Assembly: GCA_004292605.1 (NCBI GenBank) | Contig: RDXK01000101.1 | Location: forward strand, 1-46,129 | Source of the DNA: Bacteroidota bacterium | GTDB lineage: Bacteria > Bacteroidota > Bacteroidia > Chitinophagales > Chitinophagaceae | Reading direction: 5' to 3' | DNA: 46,129 bases | Shown here: positions 7,087 to 19,299 of the stretch, in pieces | Numbering within the stretch: the first letter of the stretch is position 1 | Layout of the letters: each line of letters starts with the position of its first letter | Program-made: the position numbers and the translations under genes | The notes under the pieces: model-generated | Told to the model about the DNA's origin: nothing | The model's input: the letters and a program-made list of their open reading frames with translations, nothing else | Databases searched by the model: none

Positions 7087-8001
7087 ATGAATAGACTATT
7101 TCAGTTGACCGTTTTACTATTATTACTTGTAATGAGTTGCAAGATACCAAACAACAAGACCGATTTGTTGCGGAAAAAAATTAAACAAATTGTATCTGGC
7201 AAAAATGCAGTAGTTGGAGTTTCAATTATAGGAAATGATGGGAAAGACACTCTATCTTTAAACGGAGAAAGACGTTTTCCAATGCAAAGCGTTTTTAAAT
7301 TTCATATAGCATTAGCTGTCATATCGGAGATTGATAAAGGCAACCTTTCATTAGACCAGGCAATAGAGATAAGCAAAAATGAACTATTGCCCGAAGACTT
7401 TTGGAGTCCACTGAGGGACGAAAATCCAAATGGTGGGAGTTTTACAATTGAAAAACTAATTCAATATTCTGTTTCTCACAGCGACAATACTGCTTGTGAT
7501 GTTTTAATACGAATCATTGGAACACCTAAGACGGTCGAAGAGTATATTAAAAAGAGTGGAATAGTTGATATACAAATCATTTTTAATGAAGAAGAAATGC
7601 AGGCAAAGTGGGAAAATATGTTTCAAAACTGGACTACACCAAAAGCAGCAAGTACAACTCTTAAACTGTTTTATGAAAATAAAAACAACTTGCTTTCAAA
7701 AACCTGTTACGACTTCTTTTGGAAAACCAATAAAGAGACGACAACAGGAAAAAAACGAATAAAAGGACTGTTACCCGAAGGAACAATTGTTGCTCACAAG
7801 ACAGGCTGGTCAGGGACAAACAAAGAAACAGGAATTACTGCCGCTGTAAACAATATTGGAATAGTATTTTTACCAGACGGTAAATATTTTATTATTAGCG
7901 TTTTTGTAACTGAATCAAAAGAAAACTTTGACACCAACGAAAAAATTATCGCCGACATTGCAAAAGCAGCATATGATTATTTCACCACAACGACTAAATA
8001 G
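7087..8001 (+). CDS. Class A beta-lactamase (subclass A2-like), lipoprotein
   Basis: This is a 304-residue serine beta-lactamase homologue. A lipobox LVMSC (Cys18) predicts a membrane-anchored periplasmic enzyme. The active-site motifs are S68-V-F-K71, S132-D-N134, an omega-loop acid in NEEEM (168-171) followed by QNW, and K238-T-G240. The QNWTTPKA segment after the omega loop is the feature that groups it with the A2 branch common in Bacteroidota (CepA/CfxA/PER type). All catalytic positions are present, so it should be active against penicillins or cephalosporins; the spectrum cannot be predicted. It is the single gene of cassette 5, without a visible regulator. Confidence 0.9.
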   Translation: MNRLFQLTVLLLLLVMSCKIPNNKTDLLRKKIKQIVSGKNAVVGVSIIGNDGKDTLSLNGERRFPMQSVFKFHIALAVISEIDKGNLSLDQAIEISKNELLPEDFWSPLRDENPNGGSFTIEKLIQYSVSHSDNTACDVLIRIIGTPKTVEEYIKKSGIVDIQIIFNEEEMQAKWENMFQNWTTPKAASTTLKLFYENKNNLLSKTCYDFFWKTNKETTTGKKRIKGLLPEGTIVAHKTGWSGTNKETGITAAVNNIGIVFLPDGKYFIISVFVTESKENFDTNEKIIADIAKAAYDYFTTTTK

Positions 8002-8899: not shown

Positions 8900-9778
8900 C
8901 TAATGGGAAGCATGAAGTTTATTCCTATATTCCTTGGGCGAAACGCCTATAAGTTTTTTAAACAACCGAGCAAAGTAGTTAGGATACTCGAAATTGAGGA
9001 GATAAGCGATTTCTGCAACTGTATAGCTAGTATGCGACAAGTAATTTTTTGCCTGATCTACTAAACGTTCTTGTACTATTAACAAAGCAGATTTACCGCA
9101 TACTTGATTGCAAACACGGTTAAGGTGTACCGAACTAATGCCCAACTCACTTGCATATACGGGAATACTTTTCTGTACATCGCTTGTTTTCACTAACTGA
9201 ATAAACCTACGGTAATAATGCAATGTTGCATTTGTATCTTTTAAAGCGCTAATACTATGAACTAGCGATATACGGTATACGGTTACAAAAAGCTGACATA
9301 ATAATGCATGAAGCATTAATTTCTTTTCAACTCTATCAGTAAATAACTCGTCATTTATTTCTCTAAATAGCATCCGTATACTCTTGTTTGAAGATGCGTG
9401 TAACACAATGCATTTTAAAGTTTCAAATTCTAAAACAATAGGGGCGGATGCAGGAAACAACATATCAAAAATTGACTCAGATATTGTAAGAATTCTTCCT
9501 TTTACATTTGGACTATATCTAAAACCATGCATAGTATTTGGCGGTATAACCAATATACAAGGTGTTTTTAACTGTTCCGACTGTGCAGATGAGTCTACTA
9601 TTACCCGTCCCGATTCTATGTAGAAAACCTGATACAAATGTGTATGCAGATGTGGCTTAATAATCCAATCGAAACCCTTGCTTCTTGTTTCTATCCACTC
9701 CAAAAAAATATAATTTCTATCGGCACTAGAAACTACCTCCCCGTATAAGCCATCAAAATTCTTTATAGTTTTTTTCAT
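8900..9778 (-). CDS. AraC-family transcriptional regulator (PobR-like)
   Basis: A 292-residue protein with an N-terminal cupin-like ligand-binding half (HTHLYQVFYIESG..., VIPPNTMHGF) and a C-terminal AraC DNA-binding domain (about residues 195-290). The domain has two helix-turn-helix units, VYASELGISSVHLNRVC and YTVAEIAYLLNFEYPNYFARLFKKLIGVSP. The size and layout fit regulators of aromatic-acid degradation such as PobR. It is divergent from the catabolic operon at 9952, so it is likely its activator. The ATG at 9778 is preferred to an upstream in-frame ATG at 9907, which would add 43 residues not typical of the family and overlap the divergent leader. Confidence 0.85.
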   Translation of the reverse strand: MKKTIKNFDGLYGEVVSSADRNYIFLEWIETRSKGFDWIIKPHLHTHLYQVFYIESGRVIVDSSAQSEQLKTPCILVIPPNTMHGFRYSPNVKGRILTISESIFDMLFPASAPIVLEFETLKCIVLHASSNKSIRMLFREINDELFTDRVEKKLMLHALLCQLFVTVYRISLVHSISALKDTNATLHYYRRFIQLVKTSDVQKSIPVYASELGISSVHLNRVCNQVCGKSALLIVQERLVDQAKNYLSHTSYTVAEIAYLLNFEYPNYFARLFKKLIGVSPKEYRNKLHASH

Positions 9779-9882
9779 ATCAATCCCAATGTTTGATTTG
9801 TATCCGTAATATACAAATTTGTGCAACTTTTGAGAACCGCCTAATATTTTCTTTGTGTATGCAAATAAGTACTGAAGTAAAC

Positions 9883-9890
9883 CAAAACTA
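9883..9890 (-). promoter_or_regulatory. Possible -7 element for the AraC-type gene
   Basis: Reads TAGTTTTG on the minus strand, fitting TAnnTTTG, about 105 bases before the chosen start. No -33 element was confirmed. Confidence 0.3.
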
Positions 9891-9951
9891 ACAACCGAAT
9901 TTGTCATTACCTACTTGCAAAAATGGCACAACAATTACAATACCAAAGAAT

Positions 9952-10905
9952 ATGATAAACCGTACATGTAAACTTATGGCTCAGTGCATACTACCACTGA
10001 TAATAACCAGCATTAAAATAACCAATCTGTTAGCACAGCCACCAAGTGGTATGCCCATAGCAAGAACACAAAACATCAAAAATAAATGGCTTGATATTGC
10101 GTATGCATCCATTTCGCCTTCCCAAAAATTAGATATCTATTTACCCAATGAGGGCGACGGACCATTTCCGGTAATCATAAGCATTCATGGTGGTGCCTTT
10201 ATGTTTGGCGACAAAGCAGATGGCCAACTAAACCCAATGCTTGAAGGAGTGAAAAGAGGCTACGCCGTGGTGTCCATCAATTATCGTTTAAGTGGTGAAG
10301 CAACGTTCCCTAAAAACATCAACGATGTAAAAGCAGCTATAAGATGGGTTAAAGGTAACGCCTCAAACTACAAATTTAATCCTCAAAAAATTGCAGTTTG
10401 GGGCGGCTCTGCAGGTGGCAACCTTGCGGCCTTGGCAGGTACTTCTGGCCATGTAAACGAACTTGAAGATATGAGCCTCGGCAACGCCAATCAATCAAGC
10501 ATTGTACATGCTGTGGTAGATTGGTTTGGCCCAACCGACTTCCTAAAAATGGACGATCAACTAGCTAAAACAGGTAACGGAAAACCCAACCATAGCCATG
10601 CAAATTCGCCAGAATCAAAGGTTTTAGGACAAACGATTACCGAAATTCCCAATAAAGTAAAACTGGCTAACCCCGAAACCTATATAACCGAAGACGACCC
10701 TCCATTCTTATTGATGCATGGCAGCAAAGACCATTTAGTACCTACCCAGCAGTCAGAGAATTTTGCAGAAAAACTAAAACAAGTGTTAGGGGCAAAAAAA
10801 GTTACCCTGAAAATAATTGAAGGTGCAAAACATGGAGGACCCAAGTTCGAAACGGCAGAAAACTTAAATATAGTGTTTGAATTTTTAGACAAATGCCTAA
10901 AATAA
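9952..10905 (+). CDS. Secreted alpha/beta-hydrolase esterase (BD-FAE/lipase-like)
   Basis: A signal-peptide-like start (CILPLIITSIKITNLLAQ) leads into an esterase domain. It has the oxyanion motif IHGGAF, the nucleophile elbow GGSAGG, an acid in HGSKDHLVP and a histidine in GAKHGG. This is the hormone-sensitive-lipase / BD-FAE type, which hydrolyses carboxyl esters including those of plant phenolic acids. Since the next genes import and degrade an aromatic acid, it may free that acid from an ester in the periplasm (inference). Starts at 9952 or 9976 are both possible; an in-frame TTG at 9901 would run into the regulator's 5' region. It is the first gene of the operon, five bases from the next at the chosen starts. 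Confidence 0.8.
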   Translation: MINRTCKLMAQCILPLIITSIKITNLLAQPPSGMPIARTQNIKNKWLDIAYASISPSQKLDIYLPNEGDGPFPVIISIHGGAFMFGDKADGQLNPMLEGVKRGYAVVSINYRLSGEATFPKNINDVKAAIRWVKGNASNYKFNPQKIAVWGGSAGGNLAALAGTSGHVNELEDMSLGNANQSSIVHAVVDWFGPTDFLKMDDQLAKTGNGKPNHSHANSPESKVLGQTITEIPNKVKLANPETYITEDDPPFLLMHGSKDHLVPTQQSENFAEKLKQVLGAKKVTLKIIEGAKHGGPKFETAENLNIVFEFLDKCLK

Positions 10906-10910
10906 TTTTC

Positions 10911-12209
10911 ATGTTTGAAAACCCAACCTTTCATGCATATAAATTGAAAATGACTAAGGTACATTATACCGTACTAGCCATTTGCTTTGTAATGAATATG
11001 TGTGACGGTATGAATGTAATGGTAATAGCCTATACTGCTAATGCTATTGGCAAAGAATGGGCTATTAATGCTGCCGACTTTGGGCTTGTTTTCAGCACAG
11101 GCTTATTAGGTATGGCCTTAGGTGCCATGCTACTAGCTTCCAAGGCAGATATTTTTGGCAGAAAATTTATGATTACAATTTGTGCTGTGCTAATGGGGTC
11201 TGGTGTATTTATAACAGCATTTGTAGAATCATTATCACAGCTAATTATTCTTCGCTTATATACAGGTATTGGAATAGGAAGTATGCTTGCATGCACCTCT
11301 ACCATTACTGCAGAATATGTACCTGAAAAATCAAAAAATTTTTGGGTAAGTTTTGTAATGGCTGGATATCCTATTGGAGCAGTACTATCAGGCCTTGTGG
11401 CTACCAAAATAATTACTAACAATAGCTGGCAAACTATGTATTGCTTTGCAGGTGCCGCCACGTTACTTACAATTCCTTTAATTATATTCTTTTTGCGAGA
11501 GTCAATAGAATTTTTATTGACAGCCCAGCCAATAAATGCGTTACAAAAGGTAAACACAATTTTAGCGGCTATGAACTTGGAACTTTTAGCCAAGCTTCCT
11601 CCCAAAAAAATAAAGAACGGTAATACTACGGTTACTGCATTATTCTCCAGAAGTACTAAAGGCCCTACCATCTTGCTGTGGCTTGCCTTTTTACTATGTT
11701 TCGCTGGATTATATTTTTTAACCAGCTGGATTCCGAAGCTTGCTTCAAACGCTGGCTTATCAATAACATTATCAATTTATGCAGGAGTATTTTTCAACCT
11801 TGGTGCTTTTATTGGAATTATCACGCAAGGATATTTATCGGCAATATTTGGTCTACGAAAAGTAATATGTTATTTTCTTGCAAGCACGGCTTTGCTGATG
11901 GTATTATTCTCGTTTTTTACTGGCCCAACACTGACACTAATTCTATTTTGCCTGATCGGATTTGGAATGCAAGGCGGCTTCATTGGTTTATATTCTGTAG
12001 CCGCCAGAATTTATACAACAGAAATACGTGGCACGGGTATCGGTTGGGCGATTGGTTTTGGAAGATTGGGTGCCATAATTGGCCCATTTATAGGAGGCCT
12101 TATCATTAGCAGTGGTGCATCTTTACATATCAACTTTATATCATTTGCAATACCCGTTGCCATGGCTGGGGTTGTTACCTTATTTATTAAATCACGTCAC
12201 GTTACCTAA
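10911..12209 (+). CDS. MFS transporter, aromatic acid:H+ symporter type
   Basis: About 430 residues with 12 predicted membrane helices. The first helix has the CDGMNVMVIAY stretch matching the DGxDxxxxxY region of the aromatic acid:H+ symporter (AAHS) family. The loop between helices 2 and 3 carries ASKADIFGRKF, the MFS motif A. The repeat of that motif in the second half is weaker. Relatives such as PcaK, MhpT and GalT bring protocatechuate, phenylpropanoids or gallate through the inner membrane. It follows the esterase gene by five bases and precedes the dioxygenase gene by four, so it belongs to the same transcript. Alternative starts are 10893 (overlapping the esterase) and 10950. Confidence 0.85.
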   Translation: MFENPTFHAYKLKMTKVHYTVLAICFVMNMCDGMNVMVIAYTANAIGKEWAINAADFGLVFSTGLLGMALGAMLLASKADIFGRKFMITICAVLMGSGVFITAFVESLSQLIILRLYTGIGIGSMLACTSTITAEYVPEKSKNFWVSFVMAGYPIGAVLSGLVATKIITNNSWQTMYCFAGAATLLTIPLIIFFLRESIEFLLTAQPINALQKVNTILAAMNLELLAKLPPKKIKNGNTTVTALFSRSTKGPTILLWLAFLLCFAGLYFLTSWIPKLASNAGLSITLSIYAGVFFNLGAFIGIITQGYLSAIFGLRKVICYFLASTALLMVLFSFFTGPTLTLILFCLIGFGMQGGFIGLYSVAARIYTTEIRGTGIGWAIGFGRLGAIIGPFIGGLIISSGASLHINFISFAIPVAMAGVVTLFIKSRHVT

Positions 12210-12213
12210 TATC

Positions 12214-13173
12214 ATGAAACAAGAAATCATCTGGGATATTGCCCACCTTGCACATGTGGAAATATTTACACCAAAATTAGAAGAAAGCACTCGCTTTTTC
12301 ACAGATATCATGGGCATGTCTATCAGTGACGTAAATGGTAATTCCATCTACCTAAGGGCTTACGATGACTATGAACACCACACGTTGAAATTAACCGCTA
12401 ACAAAAATCCTGGAATGAAACATTTTGCATGGCGTGCCAAAAGTGAACAAGCCTTGCAACGGCGGGTAGATGCCATAAAAAAAACTAAATACGCCATTGG
12501 CTGGAACGATGGCGATTTGGGGCACGGACCTGCATTTGAATACACTTCGCCCGACGGGCATTTAACCGAAATTTACTTTGAAACACAAAAATACAAATCA
12601 GGTATTAACGATACTTCTGCACTAAAAAACACTGCTAGTAAATTTCCTGCACGAGGCATTAACGTACGCCGGATAGACCATCTAAATCTTTTTGCAAAAG
12701 ATGTTCGGTCATTCAAGCATTTCCAATTGGAAAACTTGGGTGGAATATTAACTGAAACTATTGTCGATAACCTTTCCAATAATAATCCCAAAGCTGCTTG
12801 GTTTGCTGTTAATTCAAAATCTTATGATCTAGCAGTTACAGAAGACCATACGGGAATGGCAGGCCGTTTTCACCATGTTACTTATGCCGCCAATAGCAGG
12901 GAAGAAGTATTGATAGCAGCTGATATTTGCTTGGAAAATGGCATCTGTATTGAAACCGGACCTCATAAACATAGTATTCAGCAAACATTTTTTTTATATG
13001 TATTTGAGCCAGGGGGCAACCGAGTGGAGATTGCCAATACAACGGCACGTCTAATTCTAGAGCCAGATTATGAAACTATTGTATGGACGCAAGATGAAAG
13101 AAAAAAAGGGCAGGCCTGGGGGCTACCAACGGTACCCACTTTTCATACCAGAGGAACCCCAATGGCACTGTAA
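12214..13173 (+). CDS. Type I extradiol ring-cleavage dioxygenase (VOC family, catechol 2,3-dioxygenase-like)
   Basis: This 319-residue protein has two VOC domains (about 8-125 and 150-280). The C-terminal domain carries the 2-His-1-carboxylate Fe(II) site: H156 in RRIDHLN, H221 in FHHVTYA and E272 in NRVEIAN. The tail ERKKGQAWGLP is typical of catechol 2,3-dioxygenase-type enzymes, as is the N-terminal HLAHVEIFTP. Such enzymes open an aromatic ring next to a pair of hydroxyls. Here the enzyme sits with transport, hydratase, aldolase and tautomerase genes of the gallate/protocatechuate 4,5-cleavage route, where the ring-opening step is normally done by the unrelated LigB family. The start at 12214 is chosen over a longer frame that runs inside the MFS gene. 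Confidence 0.85.
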   Translation: MKQEIIWDIAHLAHVEIFTPKLEESTRFFTDIMGMSISDVNGNSIYLRAYDDYEHHTLKLTANKNPGMKHFAWRAKSEQALQRRVDAIKKTKYAIGWNDGDLGHGPAFEYTSPDGHLTEIYFETQKYKSGINDTSALKNTASKFPARGINVRRIDHLNLFAKDVRSFKHFQLENLGGILTETIVDNLSNNNPKAAWFAVNSKSYDLAVTEDHTGMAGRFHHVTYAANSREEVLIAADICLENGICIETGPHKHSIQQTFFLYVFEPGGNRVEIANTTARLILEPDYETIVWTQDERKKGQAWGLPTVPTFHTRGTPMAL

Positions 13174-13293
13174 GTATTGTTAAATTATCACACACCGTAA
13201 ACGTAAAATATTTGAGGCCTGTAACAGTAAAAGTATTGGCTAAGTTCAGTACTCGCCTCCCCGGTTTTGCAGGCGCTTATTAAAATAAAAATT

Positions 13294-14013
13294 ATGAATA
13301 AAAAACTTCTAGTAGTAGGTGCCCACTCCGGCGATTTTGTATGGAGGGCTGCAGGTACCATAGCCAAAACCATAGAAGAGGGTGGCACAGCCTTAGTTAT
13401 TGCAATGACCTATGGCGAAAGAGGTGAATCTGGTGAATTATGGAAAGAAGATCCGAAACGTTCCGAAGAAAGCGTGAAAATAATACGGCAGCAACAAGCA
13501 ACAAAAGCTGCTGAAATTATTGGTACTACCATCCAGTTTCTAGATTGGGGCGATTACCCCATGGTGCTCACAAATGACAGAATAAAACAACTCACCACCA
13601 TTATTGGAGATTTCGAACCAAATGTAATTTTAACTCATTCAGAAAAAGACCCATTTAATCCCGATCATCCGCTAGCGTTTCAGGCAGTACAGCAGGCACG
13701 ATTATTATCTAGTGGTGCAGGCGTACCAAGTGCTTTTAAAAATATTGACCCACCCGTGTGGTATTCGTTTGAACCACATCAACCAGAGCTCTCTGGCTTT
13801 ATCCCCGATACATTCATTGATATCAGTTCGGTAATGGAAAAAAAATTAGCGGCAATGAACTGTATGGGTGCACAGAATTACCTGAAAGACTATTATGCCG
13901 AATTAGCGGGCAGAAGGGCAAATCACGCCAGAAGAATTTCAGGTAACAAGGAAATAAAATTTGCTGAGGCACATCAAAGTATGGTACCACGAGTAGTGTC
14001 AACTATTTTTTAA
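13294..14013 (+). CDS. galB: GalB-like 4-oxalomesaconate hydratase (PIG-L superfamily)
   Basis: This 239-residue protein has the PIG-L (LmbE) fold but in place of the deacetylase AHPDDE it has AHSGDFVWRAAG, and shortly after it MTYGERGESGELW. The DFVWR and YGERGES signatures are those of the zinc-dependent hydratase GalB of Pseudomonas, not of sugar deacetylases. GalB adds water to 4-oxalomesaconate to give 4-carboxy-4-hydroxy-2-oxoadipate. H11 and D14 are likely metal ligands, with a third His in NPDHPLAF. It is preceded by about 120 bases without a gene, the only sizeable gap in the operon, and followed by the aldolase gene. An in-frame TTG at 13267 is a less likely start. Confidence 0.75.
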   Translation: MNKKLLVVGAHSGDFVWRAAGTIAKTIEEGGTALVIAMTYGERGESGELWKEDPKRSEESVKIIRQQQATKAAEIIGTTIQFLDWGDYPMVLTNDRIKQLTTIIGDFEPNVILTHSEKDPFNPDHPLAFQAVQQARLLSSGAGVPSAFKNIDPPVWYSFEPHQPELSGFIPDTFIDISSVMEKKLAAMNCMGAQNYLKDYYAELAGRRANHARRISGNKEIKFAEAHQSMVPRVVSTIF

Positions 14014-14045
14014 AATTATTGCTAAATAATATAATACGTTTCTGT

Positions 14046-14663
14046 ATGGATTCGATAACACTTCTAAGTCAGTTCTCCACTGCAACTATTCATGAAGCAT
14101 TGGGCAAATGTGGAAACCTACCGTCCGCCATTAAACCAATCCATACCAACATGAAAGTATGTGGCCCCGCGTACACAGTTAAAACAATGCCTAGAGATAA
14201 TGTTTTACTACACCGTGCTTACGCCTATGCAAAACCGGGTGAGGTAATTGTAGCCAACTGCTCAGGGTTTTATGAAGCTGGCTACTGGGGCGATTTAATG
14301 AGCCTTGGCGCTATTACAAAAGGCATCAATGGCTTAGTGATAGACGGATGTGTACGAGATGCTGATGATATTGAAGCAATAGGATTTAGTGTGTTTAGCC
14401 GTGGGCTTTGTATACAAGGCACTTCGAACCATGGTGATGGCTTTTTAAATGAACCGATTATTATTGGCGAGGTGCTTATCAACCCCGGCGATATTATTGT
14501 TGGAGACAGAGATGGTGTAGTAGCGGTACCTCAACATAGAGTAACAGAAACTATTGAAAAATCTATTGCACGGATAGAAAAAGAAGTTCAAGTTAGAGAA
14601 CAACTAAGAGAAGGAAAAACATCCATAGAAATTTACGGTTGGGACAAAAAATTTGGCTACTAG
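14046..14663 (+). CDS. galC: 4-carboxy-4-hydroxy-2-oxoadipate / HMG aldolase (RraA-like)
   Basis: A 205-residue member of the RraA/HMG-CHA aldolase family, with STATIHEALGK near the start, the phosphate/carboxylate loop WGDLMSLGA and the catalytic GCVRDADD (Arg and Asp for pyruvate and Mg2+ binding). The C-terminal KEVQVREQLREGKTSIEIYGWD tail is found in the true aldolases (ProA, LigK, GalC) and not in RraA ribonuclease inhibitors. It would split 4-carboxy-4-hydroxy-2-oxoadipate into pyruvate and oxaloacetate, the last step of the route. The ATG at 14046 is chosen; a TTG at 14019 would add nine poorly conserved residues. The next gene starts 15 bases later. Confidence 0.85.
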   Translation: MDSITLLSQFSTATIHEALGKCGNLPSAIKPIHTNMKVCGPAYTVKTMPRDNVLLHRAYAYAKPGEVIVANCSGFYEAGYWGDLMSLGAITKGINGLVIDGCVRDADDIEAIGFSVFSRGLCIQGTSNHGDGFLNEPIIIGEVLINPGDIIVGDRDGVVAVPQHRVTETIEKSIARIEKEVQVREQLREGKTSIEIYGWDKKFGY

Positions 14664-14678
14664 ATTAAATCAAATAAC

Positions 14679-15449
14679 ATGCATATTGCTATACTTGGTT
14701 TGGGCGAAGCGGGAAGCATTTTCGCGAACGACTTGGCTGCGATGGGCATTACCGTTTCAGGATGGGACCCCAATCTTAAAAGAACGCTCAATGAAAGAGT
14801 ACGATTTGCAAAAAATAATTTGGATGCCGCAAAAGATGCTGATATTATACTAAGTGTAAATCTGTCCTCGGCCTCAGAAGCAATTGCTAAAGAAGTGTTG
14901 CCAGCATTAAATGCAGGCAAAATCTATGCTGAAATGAACACATCAGCACCGCAGAAAAAATATGCCATTTTCGAAATTATTAAGCCGTCTGGTGTACAAT
15001 ATGTGGATCTGGCTATTATGGCACCAGTACCGCCTAAGGGAATAAAAACACCATTCATAGCTTCAGGCCCAGGAGCAAAACAAATGAAGGAACAACTGGC
15101 AAATCTTCAATTAAATTTTTCCTTTTTAAGCAACAATGTTGGCGACGCATCTACCAGGAAATTACTACGCTCCATTGTATACAAGGGTGTGGCCGCTGTT
15201 ATATGCGAAGCACTCGAAAGTGCCAAAGTATTTGGGCTAGAACCCTATATTAGGGAGCAGATTCTTTCCATTATTGGGGGTAATGAAACGCTAATTGATC
15301 GTTTTGTAGAGGGTAGTTACTTACATACGGAAAGGCGTATACAAGAAATGGAAGCAGTAATTCAAATGTTGGAAGAAAAAGACATCCAACCATTTGCGTC
15401 AATAGCAGCAAGAAATAACCTAGAAAAAATTATGAGGAGTAAAAACTAG
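14679..15449 (+). CDS. NAD(P)-dependent dehydrogenase, 6-PGDH-like with DUF1932
   Basis: This 256-residue protein begins with a Rossmann nucleotide-binding motif GLGEAGS (residues 7-13). It continues as a beta-hydroxyacid dehydrogenase of the DUF1932 group (NAD-binding 6-phosphogluconate-dehydrogenase-like), with the catalytic-helix lysine in LLRSIVYKGVAA. It does not look like LigC, the CHMS dehydrogenase of the protocatechuate 4,5 route, which is of the GFO/IDH/MocA family. It sits between the aldolase and tautomerase genes with gaps of 15 and 4 bases, so it is surely part of the pathway or a side branch. A role in reducing a keto intermediate, or in oxidising a semialdehyde, is inference. 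Confidence 0.8.
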   Translation: MHIAILGLGEAGSIFANDLAAMGITVSGWDPNLKRTLNERVRFAKNNLDAAKDADIILSVNLSSASEAIAKEVLPALNAGKIYAEMNTSAPQKKYAIFEIIKPSGVQYVDLAIMAPVPPKGIKTPFIASGPGAKQMKEQLANLQLNFSFLSNNVGDASTRKLLRSIVYKGVAAVICEALESAKVFGLEPYIREQILSIIGGNETLIDRFVEGSYLHTERRIQEMEAVIQMLEEKDIQPFASIAARNNLEKIMRSKN

Positions 15450-15453
15450 CCAA

Positions 15454-16563
15454 ATGCAAACAGCCATTCCATACATGCAATTTAGAGGAGGGAGTTCAAA
15501 AGGACTCTACTTTAAAGCAACCGACTTGCCCGCTGATGAAGAATTACGAGATAAGTTGATCATAGCAGCAATGGAGGGTTTAGGACAAGGCGACCCAAGG
15601 CAAATTGATGGCTTAGGGGGCGGCACATCCCTAACTAGCAAGGCTGCTGTTGTTAGCTTATCTACTTCACATACGGCCCAGCTTGATTATCTTTTTTTAC
15701 AGGTAATAATAGGTAAAGGCAAAGTATCTACCACTCAAACATGTGGCAATATTTTGGCCGGCGTAGTTCATTTTGCAATTGAATGTGGGCTTATTAAAGC
15801 CACTAGTCCTACCACTTCTGCTAAAGTAAATTTGGTTAATACCGGTGGAATATGTGAAGTAACCATCGAAACACCTTTTGGTAAGGTTAATTATGAAGGC
15901 GATACAAAAGTAGATGGTGTACCCGGTACATCAGCCCCCGTTATTTGCCATTATATAGGTACATGTGGGGCTACATGTGGGTCCTTGCTACCAACTGGTA
16001 ATTTAAAAGATATTGTGAATGGAATACCAGTTACTTGTATTGATAATGGAATGCCACAGGTAATTATCAAAGCGAGTGATTTAGGAATTAAAGGCAACGA
16101 AACACCCACCTACTTAAATAACAATGAGTACTTGAAAAAAACACTAGAAGGTATCCGTTTACAAATTGGTAAAGCCATGAATTTAGGTGATGTTACGCAC
16201 AAGACAATCCCTAAAATGTGTATAGTATCGCCACCGCTCCATGGAGGCACCATCCACACTCGAACTTTTATTCCACATGTGTGCCACGAGGCTATTGGTG
16301 TTTTAGGGGCAGTTTCCATTGCTACTGCTTGTATGCTAAAGGGTACCGTAGTAGACAATGTTTGCGAAGTAGCTAATACCCAAACATTATCTATTGAGCA
16401 TCCAATGGGCGAATTCACGGTAGTATTGAACCTAACCAATTATGATGGAAATATTACGATTAATAAATCTGGAGTTGTCCGCACTGCACGGCTGATTAGT
16501 AAAGGCGAAGTGTATATACCTAGTTATCCAAAAAAAAATACAAATAATGCACCTCATCTATAA
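15454..16563 (+). CDS. galD: 4-oxalomesaconate tautomerase (PrpF/GalD family)
   Basis: A 369-residue PrpF-family isomerase of two similar diaminopimelate-epimerase-like halves. It starts IPYMQFRGGSSKGLYF, the substrate-binding Ser-Ser-Lys motif of the family, and has GDPRQIDGLGGGTSLTSKAA, TTQTCGNILAGV and ARLISKGEVYIP near the end. GalD of Pseudomonas converts the keto form of 4-oxalomesaconate to its enol tautomer, the substrate of GalB. A PrpF role in the methylcitrate cycle is the alternative, but the GalB- and aldolase-like genes in the same operon argue for the tautomerase. It starts four bases after the dehydrogenase gene and ends 17 bases before the DUF3500 gene. Confidence 0.8.
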   Translation: MQTAIPYMQFRGGSSKGLYFKATDLPADEELRDKLIIAAMEGLGQGDPRQIDGLGGGTSLTSKAAVVSLSTSHTAQLDYLFLQVIIGKGKVSTTQTCGNILAGVVHFAIECGLIKATSPTTSAKVNLVNTGGICEVTIETPFGKVNYEGDTKVDGVPGTSAPVICHYIGTCGATCGSLLPTGNLKDIVNGIPVTCIDNGMPQVIIKASDLGIKGNETPTYLNNNEYLKKTLEGIRLQIGKAMNLGDVTHKTIPKMCIVSPPLHGGTIHTRTFIPHVCHEAIGVLGAVSIATACMLKGTVVDNVCEVANTQTLSIEHPMGEFTVVLNLTNYDGNITINKSGVVRTARLISKGEVYIPSYPKKNTNNAPHL

Positions 16564-16580
16564 AAATTAAACCAAATAAC

Positions 16581-17957
16581 ATGAAACAAAAGCTCAAGTT
16601 TTTACTCCGTATCGCATTACTAAGTCCGATAGCATTTATAGCCTGTAAAAAAGATAATACAGGCGCCACCACCACCCCTACCACCACCGCTAGTGTAACT
16701 GCATTAAATTGCTCTTCTTCCATTTTTTCGGCAAGTGCTATTACAGGTGTAGCCTATACAGCTACCGCCACAGTGCCATATACTGGTGGCAATAGCTCCA
16801 GCTTTGCCGCGGGTACAGCTATTTCATCTACAGGAGTAACGGGTTTAACGGCTACCCTTACGGCTGGCACCCTAGCCAATGGCGCCGGAACACTTATCTA
16901 CTCTATCGCTGGAACCCCTACATCATCGGGTACCGCGTTGTTTCCATTATCTTTTGGCGGGCAATCCTGCACCCTTTCATTAATCGTTAACGCAGCACCT
17001 TCTAATTGCACAGCCTTAACAGGTACTACAAAACTCATTTGCTTGTGCGAAGCTTTTAAAGCAACCCTTACTCCCGCCCAGATTACTACCCTTCAACTGT
17101 CGTACAACTTTGCTAATATAAAAACGTGGAGTAACCTACCGGCGTCTATGTCGCCACGCCTAGGAATTAAACTGGGTACATTGACAGCAACACAGCTTAT
17201 AGCAGCAAGAGCTATTGTACAACAAATGAGTGGTTCTGCGGCCAATGAAGGCTGGGACGAAGTGCAGCAACTATGGTTAGCGGACGACTATTTAAGCGTA
17301 AATGGTGGCGGCAGTACCTACGGTGCAGGAAACTACTATTTGGCTTTTTTCGGTAACCCCGCTAGTACCGGCCAATTTGAAATAATGATGACCGGACATC
17401 ACAAAACCATAGCCAATACCTACAAAGATGGTTCCCTAATTGCAGCAACACCGCACTTTGCCGCTACGGAGCCTCTAACTTGGGTAACAAGCGGTACTAC
17501 TTATGCGCCGATGGAACAGGAGCAGGCCGCTTTTGCAGCACTAATTGCGGGGCTAACTACCACACAATACAATACCGCACATACTACCACCACTTATAGC
17601 GATTTAATTTTGGGTCCTAACGCCAATTGGTCGTTCCCAGCTACCAATAGCGGACTGGTATGCAGCGGACTAACTACGGCCCAAAAAACTTTACTGATGA
17701 ATGCGATTAAAACTTATGTGAACGATGTAGACGATACCAATGCTGCATCTATAACAGCGCTTTACGAATCGGAATTGAATAACACCTATTTATTGCATAG
17801 CGGCACTATGGGAATGAATACAAGAAACGACTATCTCCGTATCGACGGCCCGCACGTATGGATTGAATTTAGTGTGCAGAACGGAATAGTATTAAGTGGC
17901 ATTCACTATCACTCTGTTTGGAGAGATAGGGTAAATGACTACGGCACCACCCGATAA
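16581..17957 (+). CDS. DUF3500 lipoprotein
   Basis: A 458-residue protein with a lipobox at AFIACKK. The next about 120 residues are Thr/Ala/Ser-rich and resemble a bacterial Ig-like repeat. After a Cys-containing linker (CTALTG..LICLCEAF) the C-terminal about 300 residues form the DUF3500 domain, with GNYYLAFFG, TGHHKTI, PHFAATEP, RIDGPHVWIEF and HYHSVWRDRVNDYG. The many His residues suggest a metal site, but the activity of the family is not known to me. It starts 17 bases after the tautomerase gene and is followed by a strong terminator, so it closes the catabolic operon. DUF3500 genes often sit beside HupE/UreJ-type genes, and one follows here. Confidence 0.8.
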   Translation: MKQKLKFLLRIALLSPIAFIACKKDNTGATTTPTTTASVTALNCSSSIFSASAITGVAYTATATVPYTGGNSSSFAAGTAISSTGVTGLTATLTAGTLANGAGTLIYSIAGTPTSSGTALFPLSFGGQSCTLSLIVNAAPSNCTALTGTTKLICLCEAFKATLTPAQITTLQLSYNFANIKTWSNLPASMSPRLGIKLGTLTATQLIAARAIVQQMSGSAANEGWDEVQQLWLADDYLSVNGGGSTYGAGNYYLAFFGNPASTGQFEIMMTGHHKTIANTYKDGSLIAATPHFAATEPLTWVTSGTTYAPMEQEQAAFAALIAGLTTTQYNTAHTTTTYSDLILGPNANWSFPATNSGLVCSGLTTAQKTLLMNAIKTYVNDVDDTNAASITALYESELNNTYLLHSGTMGMNTRNDYLRIDGPHVWIEFSVQNGIVLSGIHYHSVWRDRVNDYGTTR

Positions 17958-17983
17958 ACATCTAAAAATTACATAGTTAATAT

Positions 17984-18015
17984 AAACAGCCGGCATAGCA
18001 AATATCCGGCTGTTT
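17984..18015 (+). terminator. Rho-independent terminator of the catabolic operon
   Basis: AAACAGCCGG pairs perfectly with CCGGCTGTTT around a 12-base loop, 27 bases after the DUF3500 stop. It separates that gene from the HupE-like gene. Confidence 0.8.
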
Positions 18016-18027
18016 AATTCACACATC

Positions 18028-19299
18028 ATGTACAAACACTTACTACTATTATTTCTTATTTTTCTATGTAAGATAAGTTTTGCTCACCCCATGCCTGGGT
18101 CCCTGGTAAATCTGTCAATTTTAGAGACAAGCATAAAAGGTGAAGCAAAAATTCCGATCACTGAATTGCAAAATGCAATAGGCGAGCAGCAAGATTATAC
18201 TGACATAAACAGCCCGTTCTTTATTCAATATTTTTTAAAACACATCAATGCAAACACGGGTAATAAAAAATGGCATACAGTAATTCATAGTGCTACAACA
18301 ACTGATGACATTGACTCCATTGTTGGAAAATACAAAGAGGTAATTGTATACTTCGAATTGATTGCACCACCCAATACCAGCCCACGACAATTTACTTTTA
18401 ATTATGACGTGGTAATACACCAAGTAATTACACACCAAATTTTTATAAACGTTCAGCAAGATTGGTTTAACGGATTGCACCATGAACAGCATAAACAACA
18501 ATTAGGCATTATTGCCTTAGATATTCCATCTGGCAAATACTCACCGCTTCACATAAATCTTGACCAAGGAAGTTGGTGGAAGGGCTTTTATAGCATATTT
18601 ACTCTAGGAATGCAACATATTAAAGAAGGTACCGACCATATACTGTTTTTAATTGTGCTATTATTGCCTGCTATGCTTGTGACAAACCAAAAAAAATGGA
18701 CCAACTATGGTGGACTAACATATAGCTTATTAAAATTACTTAAAATAGTAACTGCATTCACGGTTGGGCACTCTATTACATTACTGTTTGGGGCACTAAA
18801 TTGGGTAAACATACCGCAAAAACCTGTGGAAATATTAATTGCCTTCTCTATTTTAGTATCGGCCGTTAACGCCATAATGCCCATTTTTTTTGGAAAAGAA
18901 ATATACCTAGCCGCAGCATTTGGCTTAGTACATGGATTAGCATTTGCCACCGTTCTATCAAAGTTACAATTAAGTACCACTAAGCTAGCTCTAAGTATTC
19001 TTGGCTTTAATCTGGGTATTGAGTTCATGCAGCTATTCATCATCAGTCTTATTATACCTTGGTTAATACTACTTAGCAAAACACCTTATTACAAATGGTA
19101 TAAAAATGCATTAGCATTTATAGCTACAATAGCTGCGATAGCATGGATAGTGGAAAGAACTAATGAACGGCCGAATACAGTAAGTACAATTATGCAGTAT
19201 ATATTTCAATACTCGCCTTGGGCAATAGCGGCACTCGCCATAATTGCCATTATCACTTTTTTTTGGCATCAAAAAAAGATACAGAAAACATATAGCTAA
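18028..19299 (+). CDS. HupE/UreJ-family membrane protein with periplasmic N-terminal domain
   Basis: This 423-residue protein has a signal peptide ending ISFAHP, about 160 periplasmic residues (18-185), then about seven membrane helices. The membrane half carries the HupE/UreJ_2 marks HIKEGTDHILF, FTVGHSITLLFG and FGLVHGLAFA, with His residues in three helices as expected for a nickel/cobalt or other metal channel. The family is named for hydrogenase and urease clusters, but neither is present here. The neighbouring DUF3500 gene is a recurrent partner. It begins 12 bases after the terminator, so its own promoter would have to lie in or before that hairpin, or it is read through. Confidence 0.8.
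   Translation: MYKHLLLLFLIFLCKISFAHPMPGSLVNLSILETSIKGEAKIPITELQNAIGEQQDYTDINSPFFIQYFLKHINANTGNKKWHTVIHSATTTDDIDSIVGKYKEVIVYFELIAPPNTSPRQFTFNYDVVIHQVITHQIFINVQQDWFNGLHHEQHKQQLGIIALDIPSGKYSPLHINLDQGSWWKGFYSIFTLGMQHIKEGTDHILFLIVLLLPAMLVTNQKKWTNYGGLTYSLLKLLKIVTAFTVGHSITLLFGALNWVNIPQKPVEILIAFSILVSAVNAIMPIFFGKEIYLAAAFGLVHGLAFATVLSKLQLSTTKLALSILGFNLGIEFMQLFIISLIIPWLILLSKTPYYKWYKNALAFIATIAAIAWIVERTNERPNTVSTIMQYIFQYSPWAIAALAIIAIITFFWHQKKIQKTYS

Follow-up and report, generated by a model that had tools for sequence, protein, structure and literature searches.

A gene run in a 46,129-nucleotide stretch of Bacteroidota DNA (the window, by which we mean the whole stretch that was analysed) probably serves the uptake and mineralisation of gallate, the unit from which tannins are built. 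Its ring-opening enzyme would be a type I gallate dioxygenase of the VOC fold, and the enzymes GalD, GalB and GalC would finish the degradation of the cleavage product, 4-oxalomesaconate (OMA). To our knowledge, all experimentally described gallate dioxygenases are LigB-type (type II) enzymes. The AromaDeg database, likewise, places gallate dioxygenases only in its LigB-type (type II) group (PMC4250580). No description of a type I gallate dioxygenase was found in the open-access literature; subscription literature was not covered, and a prior report is therefore possible. In the predicted system a known pathway uses a ring-opener of a different superfamily, itself altered in a catalytic residue, and what appears to be new is the presence of Tyr, at the position of a catalytic His, across a whole VOC clade.

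The window is contig 185 of a 98% complete draft genome (2.97 Mb in 331 contigs) from a Chitinophagaceae-like member of the Bacteroidota, and the nearest VOC relative of the window protein in our tree belongs to a Chitinophagaceae metagenome-assembled genome (MAG). The plus-strand gene run covers positions 9,901-19,299, with gaps of mostly a few bases, in the order BD-FAE esterase, AAHS-type MFS transporter, VOC, GalB, GalC, DUF1932, GalD, DUF3500 and HupE/UreJ, and a divergent gene for an AraC-family regulator lies at 8,900-9,907 (Table 1). The core pathway set, from the esterase to GalD, spans bases 9,900-16,563. A preliminary description of this DNA had named the AraC regulator, the AAHS-like transporter, the VOC protein, GalB (with its motifs DFVWR and YGERGES), GalC and GalD, and profile matches find each of them where it was said to be; four members of the run, the BD-FAE, DUF1932, DUF3500 and HupE/UreJ genes, had been missed, the last of them lying wholly beyond position 18015, where the described region stops. 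The full route from OMA to pyruvate and oxaloacetate that it proposed is also upheld. The lower gallate pathway appears complete in the window, since GalD and GalC pass the curated cut-offs of their models (NF033377 and NF006731) and GalB has Pseudomonas putida GalB (5cgz) as its best solved relative; that of GalC is 3noj, and those of GalD are (4E)-oxalomesaconate Delta-isomerase structures, 6p3j among them.

The proposed course of degradation is the following. Galloyl esters would be split to gallate, probably by the BD-FAE esterase. A non-haem Fe(II), held by H156, H221 and E272 of the VOC protein, would chelate two adjacent hydroxyls of gallate, and the ring would be opened between C4 and C5 to give OMA directly. 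OMA would be isomerised by GalD and hydrated by GalB to 4-carboxy-4-hydroxy-2-oxoadipate (CHA), which GalC would convert to pyruvate and oxaloacetate. The place of the DUF1932 enzyme would be at the OMA end of the route, and control of the operon presumably lies with the AraC protein. From sequence we infer not only gallate as the substrate and OMA as the product, but also that Y204, or the third hydroxyl of the substrate, takes the place in proton transfer of His200 of homoprotocatechuate 2,3-dioxygenase (HPCD). In gallate the C3-C4 and C4-C5 bonds are equivalent by symmetry, and intradiol and proximal extradiol cleavage lead to the same product. It is our speculation that this symmetry could relax the need for the histidine.

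The VOC protein is encoded by the sole ring-cleavage gene of the operon. Its best NCBIfam model is that of catechol 2,3-dioxygenase (TIGR03211), for which it scores under the cut-off of 320.2 bits; its only Pfam match is PF00903, and the LigB-family gallate dioxygenase models (PF02900, NF009904) do not match it. The predicted structure has the two-module VOC fold and superposes by Foldseek on AphC, XylE and HPCD (chains 3lm4, 7q2a, 1mpy and 1f1v) with TM values of about 0.80-0.87. The 2-His-1-Glu iron triad aligns to the ligands of HPCD and is kept in all rows of our residue table, and H253 and Y262 are conserved. Y204 aligns to His200 of HPCD (1f1x) with no gaps nearby (SKSYDLAVTED over GTVHDTALTG). 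Among 74 sequences this position holds Tyr in 59 and His in 15: all 59 rows of one clade, with support 100/99, have Tyr, all 15 relatives outside it have His, and there is a single Tyr/His label change on the tree. Loss of the second-sphere histidine that is usual in type I extradiol enzymes marks a variant and does not exclude the protein from the fold family. The earlier label "catechol 2,3-dioxygenase-like" is right as to fold and best model, but it undersells a protein that scores below the cut-off and that, by its sequence, falls in a separate clade in which the catalytic His is replaced by Tyr.

HPCD is, like the VOC protein, a type I extradiol enzyme with the same iron triad, and equivalents of its W192, H248, Y257 and N157 are kept, whereas its His200 is Tyr in the window protein, and its R243 and R293, which bind carboxylate, give way to T248 and G299. 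These arginines are not present in the OMA-linked members, nearly all of which have K202, T248, H251 and K252 in common (Ala at 248 in one row). The solved structures that the fold search matched include forms of HPCD altered at residue 200. The alkylcatechol 2,3-dioxygenase AphC of Rhodococcus (3lm4, 7q2a) resembles the window protein in its two-module fold (TM 0.87), in sequence (38-39% identity) and in its iron ligands, but has His at the HPCD-200 position, where the window clade has Tyr together with near-invariant K202, T248 and H251; the plasmid relatives of AphC (L079) have no gal genes nearby. The closest solved sequence is PDB 9wgj (E 1.4e-89), which is of the Tyr type (NKSYD), like the window protein, but branches outside the OMA-linked set and does not have H251. 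This entry is deposited as "Catechol 1,2-dioxygenase", yet almost all of its sequence can be aligned with VOC extradiol enzymes; a search of the open-access literature found no publication on it.

The linkage of the VOC gene to the gal genes is not a matter of chance, since every locus retrieved by the VOC enzyme alone encodes GalB, and GalD and the VOC enzyme occur in the same genomes. When about 85,000 species genomes were scanned with the VOC alignment only, 45 loci were found (41 in Bacteroidota, 4 in Chloroflexota), and GalB is close to the VOC gene in 45 of 45, with GalC, DUF1932 and GalD present in most and the order usually kept. Of 395 evenly sampled Bacteroidota genomes, two have GalD, and the same two are the ones with a VOC enzyme of this degree of identity. 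At least one of GalB, GalC, GalD and DUF1932 is found in the stretch around each of the 57 Tyr rows from other loci, as in the window, while the 59th Tyr row, 9wgj, comes without gene context. The 13 His-type rows with context have no gal genes nearby, although for five of them only 1.5 kb per side was covered. The Tyr clade is coextensive with the OMA-pathway context. Plasmids carry the set in Thermus oshimai (L057), Pantoea piersonii (L058), Agrobacterium vitis (L059), Thioclava (L061), Rhizobium (L062 and L064), Roseibium (L081) and a walnut Agrobacterium (L086), and the range comprises Bacteroidota, Chloroflexota, Deinococcota, and Alpha- and Gammaproteobacteria. The preliminary description had called the pathway little known in Bacteroidota. 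The set is rare there and is not peculiar to them, occurring in four further groups, and is best described as widespread but sparse. One Chloroflexota operon (L049:7708-11364) has the order DUF1932-GalB-GalC-VOC-CHMI, and GalD was not found in the stretch; its homologue of 5-carboxymethyl-2-hydroxymuconate isomerase (CHMI, PF02962) may replace the OMA tautomerase, as a second replacement.

The window's genome has no PF02900 (LigB) protein and no NF009904 match, so that the known gallate dioxygenase, LigB-type GalA, is excluded from it. A LigB-type gallate dioxygenase was detected neither there nor in any of 26 other genomes that carry the VOC-gal set (27 in all), while positive controls scored. 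PF02900 matches in 18 of the 26 genomes were considered as the real ring-opener and rejected: 4,5-DOPA dioxygenase is the nearest enzyme for each of the six that were taken as loci, and the model for gallate dioxygenase has no match. The best evidence for replacement is a natural exchange between two plasmids. Klebsiella aerogenes pC9_001 (L092) carries an MFS gene, a LigB-type gallate dioxygenase (827.9 bits against a cut-off of 412), a LysR gene, galB, galC, galD and DUF1932, and Pantoea piersonii p174224 (L058) carries LysR, galB, galC, galD and DUF1932, with the VOC gene five kilobases further on. The shared proteins are 83% (GalB), 65% (GalC), 69% (GalD) and 56% (DUF1932) identical. There is no VOC homologue on pC9_001 and no LigB gallate dioxygenase on p174224, the search having covered these two plasmids and not other replicons. 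Since the Klebsiella plasmid has the GalA type and the Pantoea plasmid the VOC type, the same galBCD-DUF1932 block is seemingly fed by two unrelated dioxygenases, in a one-for-one swap. The genome search for LigB and the survey of neighbourhoods in other Bacteroidota, both of which had been proposed as checks, thus come out in favour of the suggestion that the VOC protein replaces the LigB family as sole ring-opener, which has withstood all tests that could be made at the level of sequence. Marker searches for LigA (PF07746) and, in the window's genome, for tannase gave zero matches, but control genomes gave zero too, and neither was used.

Taken by its sequences, the Tyr clade is most likely an unrecognised subfamily of type I gallate dioxygenases. 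That it arose once by a change of His200 to Tyr, that its members do the work of LigB-type GalA in four or more phyla, and that they transfer protons by a changed scheme, which draws on the third hydroxyl of gallate and on its symmetry, is a combination to which we give moderate credence. Several observations weigh against gallate as the common substrate, or against the mechanism. In HPCD, His200 is both base and acid of proton transfer, and the rate is vanishingly small without it (PMC10760822), so that a Tyr enzyme must work differently. The structural model of the VOC protein was built from 20 close sequences, has a mean pLDDT of 78 and is without a ligand pose, and the absence of LigB was established in a draft of 331 contigs. 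The clade may also hold protocatechuate or other specificities, because some of its loci carry protocatechuate-type genes, such as the amidohydrolases in L060, L063 and L080. The Thermus oshimai plasmid (L057:7342-17457) has, besides the VOC-gal set, an aldehyde dehydrogenase, DUF6282, a ring-hydroxylating dioxygenase and a 4-hydroxybenzoate 3-monooxygenase, a hint that this thermophile may run a form of the route on protocatechuate. On a Roseomonas mucosa plasmid (L080:3037-8972), genes for a LigB dioxygenase of the gallate/protocatechuate type and for a Tyr-type VOC enzyme lie one gene apart; this cluster also holds DUF1932 and an amidohydrolase resembling 4-sulfomuconolactone hydrolase.

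In one rival reading the VOC protein would act as a protocatechuate 4,5-dioxygenase. Its product would be 4-carboxy-2-hydroxymuconate semialdehyde (CHMS), the hemiacetal of which DUF1932 would oxidise to 2-pyrone-4,6-dicarboxylate (PDC); an unknown hydrolase would open PDC, and GalD, GalB and GalC would finish as before. The presence of the DUF1932 dehydrogenase in most VOC loci, the 4-hydroxybenzoate 3-monooxygenase and aldehyde dehydrogenase of the Thermus locus and the amidohydrolases near VOC genes in L060, L063 and L080 speak for such a route. However, the window's genome has no protein of the PF04909 (Amidohydro_2) family, to which the known PDC hydrolase LigI belongs, and this makes a route via PDC unlikely there. 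The Klebsiella DUF1932 gene, moreover, lies beside an authentic gallate dioxygenase, where a CHMS step does not exist; on pCAR3 and pSFD01 DUF1932 adjoins a Gfo/Idh/MocA oxidoreductase, a family that includes LigC, the known CHMS dehydrogenase, so that DUF1932 is not needed for that step; and the cores of L028, L044, L045 and L054 lack DUF1932 altogether. We hold the protocatechuate route to be improbable.

A gallate relative such as 3-O-methylgallate or pyrogallol as the true substrate is more doubtful still. With methylgallate, the esterase present in the operon would hydrolyse the resulting methyl ester to give OMA, and methylgallate is a source of OMA in Sphingobium SYK-6 too. Pyrogallol, on the other hand, would not yield OMA, the operon has no O-demethylase, and the signal-like N terminus of the esterase, together with the tannase or carboxylesterases at other loci, speaks for the release of esters upstream of ring cleavage. 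That the protein is an ordinary catechol 2,3-dioxygenase, placed beside OMA-pathway genes by accident, is scarcely credible, even though no NCBIfam model fits it better than TIGR03211 and AphC and XylE share its fold: the score is under the cut-off, the catalytic His of every classic catechol 2,3-dioxygenase in the sample is missing, the operon has no genes for a hydroxymuconate semialdehyde lower pathway, and the whole clade is OMA-linked, while no OMA genes lie in the stretches covered around the 13 relatives of the His type for which there is context.

With gallate as the preferred substrate, the esterases indicate where it may come from. A BD-FAE homologue occurs in 10 Bacteroidota VOC loci, and a carboxylesterase family at seven VOC loci and in A. 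vitis. The walnut Agrobacterium (L086) has both a tannase (PF07519), encoded immediately downstream of GalD, and a BD-FAE protein that shares 48% identity with the one in the window. Because esterases so varied, a tannase included, adjoin gal sets, they point to galloyl esters as the source of gallate.

The DUF1932 dehydrogenase is found beside the VOC enzyme, beside the LigB gallate dioxygenase (L092) and beside LigAB in sphingomonad protocatechuate clusters (L091, L094), and in a Runella MAG it is fused to GalD in a 647-residue protein (L039:16609-18552), which provides a direct functional link. Since it accompanies the OMA steps whatever the ring-opener, and is fused to GalD, it probably handles OMA or neighbouring compounds as an accessory of 4-oxalomesaconate pathways. 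A general role as CHMS dehydrogenase is ruled out by its occurrence beside a true gallate dioxygenase and beside the Gfo/Idh/MocA oxidoreductase.

Of characterised systems, the gal cluster of P. putida KT2440 (galTAPDCBR) shares with the window orthologues of GalD, GalB (5cgz-like) and GalC and an MFS transporter. It differs in that its ring is opened by LigB-family GalA rather than by a VOC enzyme and its regulator is LysR rather than AraC, and in that the DUF1932, BD-FAE and DUF3500 genes are extra in the window. The Klebsiella plasmid is closer, having MFS, galB, galC, galD and DUF1932, with its LigB-type enzyme (828 bits) where the window has VOC.

Current annotation names the enzyme "catechol 2,3-dioxygenase" or "VOC family protein", and because gallate dioxygenases are filed only as LigB-type, gallate and tannin breakdown would be missed in Bacteroidota, Chloroflexota, Thermus, rhizobia and agrobacteria. 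The change from His to Tyr gives a sequence rule by which such enzymes can be found, and a clean test of the indispensability of His200, a question pursued with HPCD H200 variants. The exchange between the Klebsiella and Pantoea plasmids is a compact example of non-orthologous displacement inside one operon.

Table 1. Genes of the predicted gallate operon and its regulator, with the matches on which each assignment is based.
Feature	Position	Strand	Basis
AraC-family regulator	8900..9907	-	HTH_18 E 1.5e-19, AraC_binding; nearest model HpaA, 136 bits, well below its 275-bit cut-off
BD-FAE-type esterase	9901..10905	+	PF20434 BD-FAE E 1.4e-72; signal-like N terminus
AAHS-like aromatic acid MFS transporter	10893..12209	+	best model TIGR00895, 332.7 vs 418.6 bits
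VOC-fold type I extradiol dioxygenase, Tyr clade, predicted gallate dioxygenase	12214..13173	+	PF00903; TIGR03211 299.3 bits; alignment, residue table, tree, model
GalB, PIG-L-type 4-oxalomesaconate hydratase	13297..14013	+	PF02585; P. putida GalB 5cgz E 8.1e-61; DFVWR and YGERGES
GalC, RraA-type CHA aldolase	14019..14663, ATG ~14046	+	NF006731 188.2 vs cut-off 179; 3noj E 2.2e-38
DUF1932 NAD(P)-dependent dehydrogenase, 6PGDH fold	14679..15449	+	PF03446 and PF09130
GalD, PrpF-type 4-oxalomesaconate tautomerase	15454..16563	+	NF033377 470.3 vs cut-off 440; 6p3j E 3.7e-105
DUF3500 lipoprotein	16581..17957	+	PF12006 E 5.9e-56; DUF3500 gene in 12 VOC loci
HupE/UreJ-like membrane protein	18028..19299	+	PF13795 E 5.8e-41; in 11 VOC loci

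The true start of the esterase is probably internal, near position 9950. An AraC gene is found near the gal set in 33 of the 46 VOC loci that were clustered. About twelve Bacteroidota loci have DUF3500 and HupE/UreJ genes as a pair near their gallate genes, and the predicted model of the DUF3500 protein has a fold close to that of the dehydratase ApmL (9x86, E 9e-14). Upstream of the AraC regulator, at 7087-8001 of the window, there is a reading frame that resembles a class A beta-lactamase, with SVFK and SDN motifs recognised by eye.

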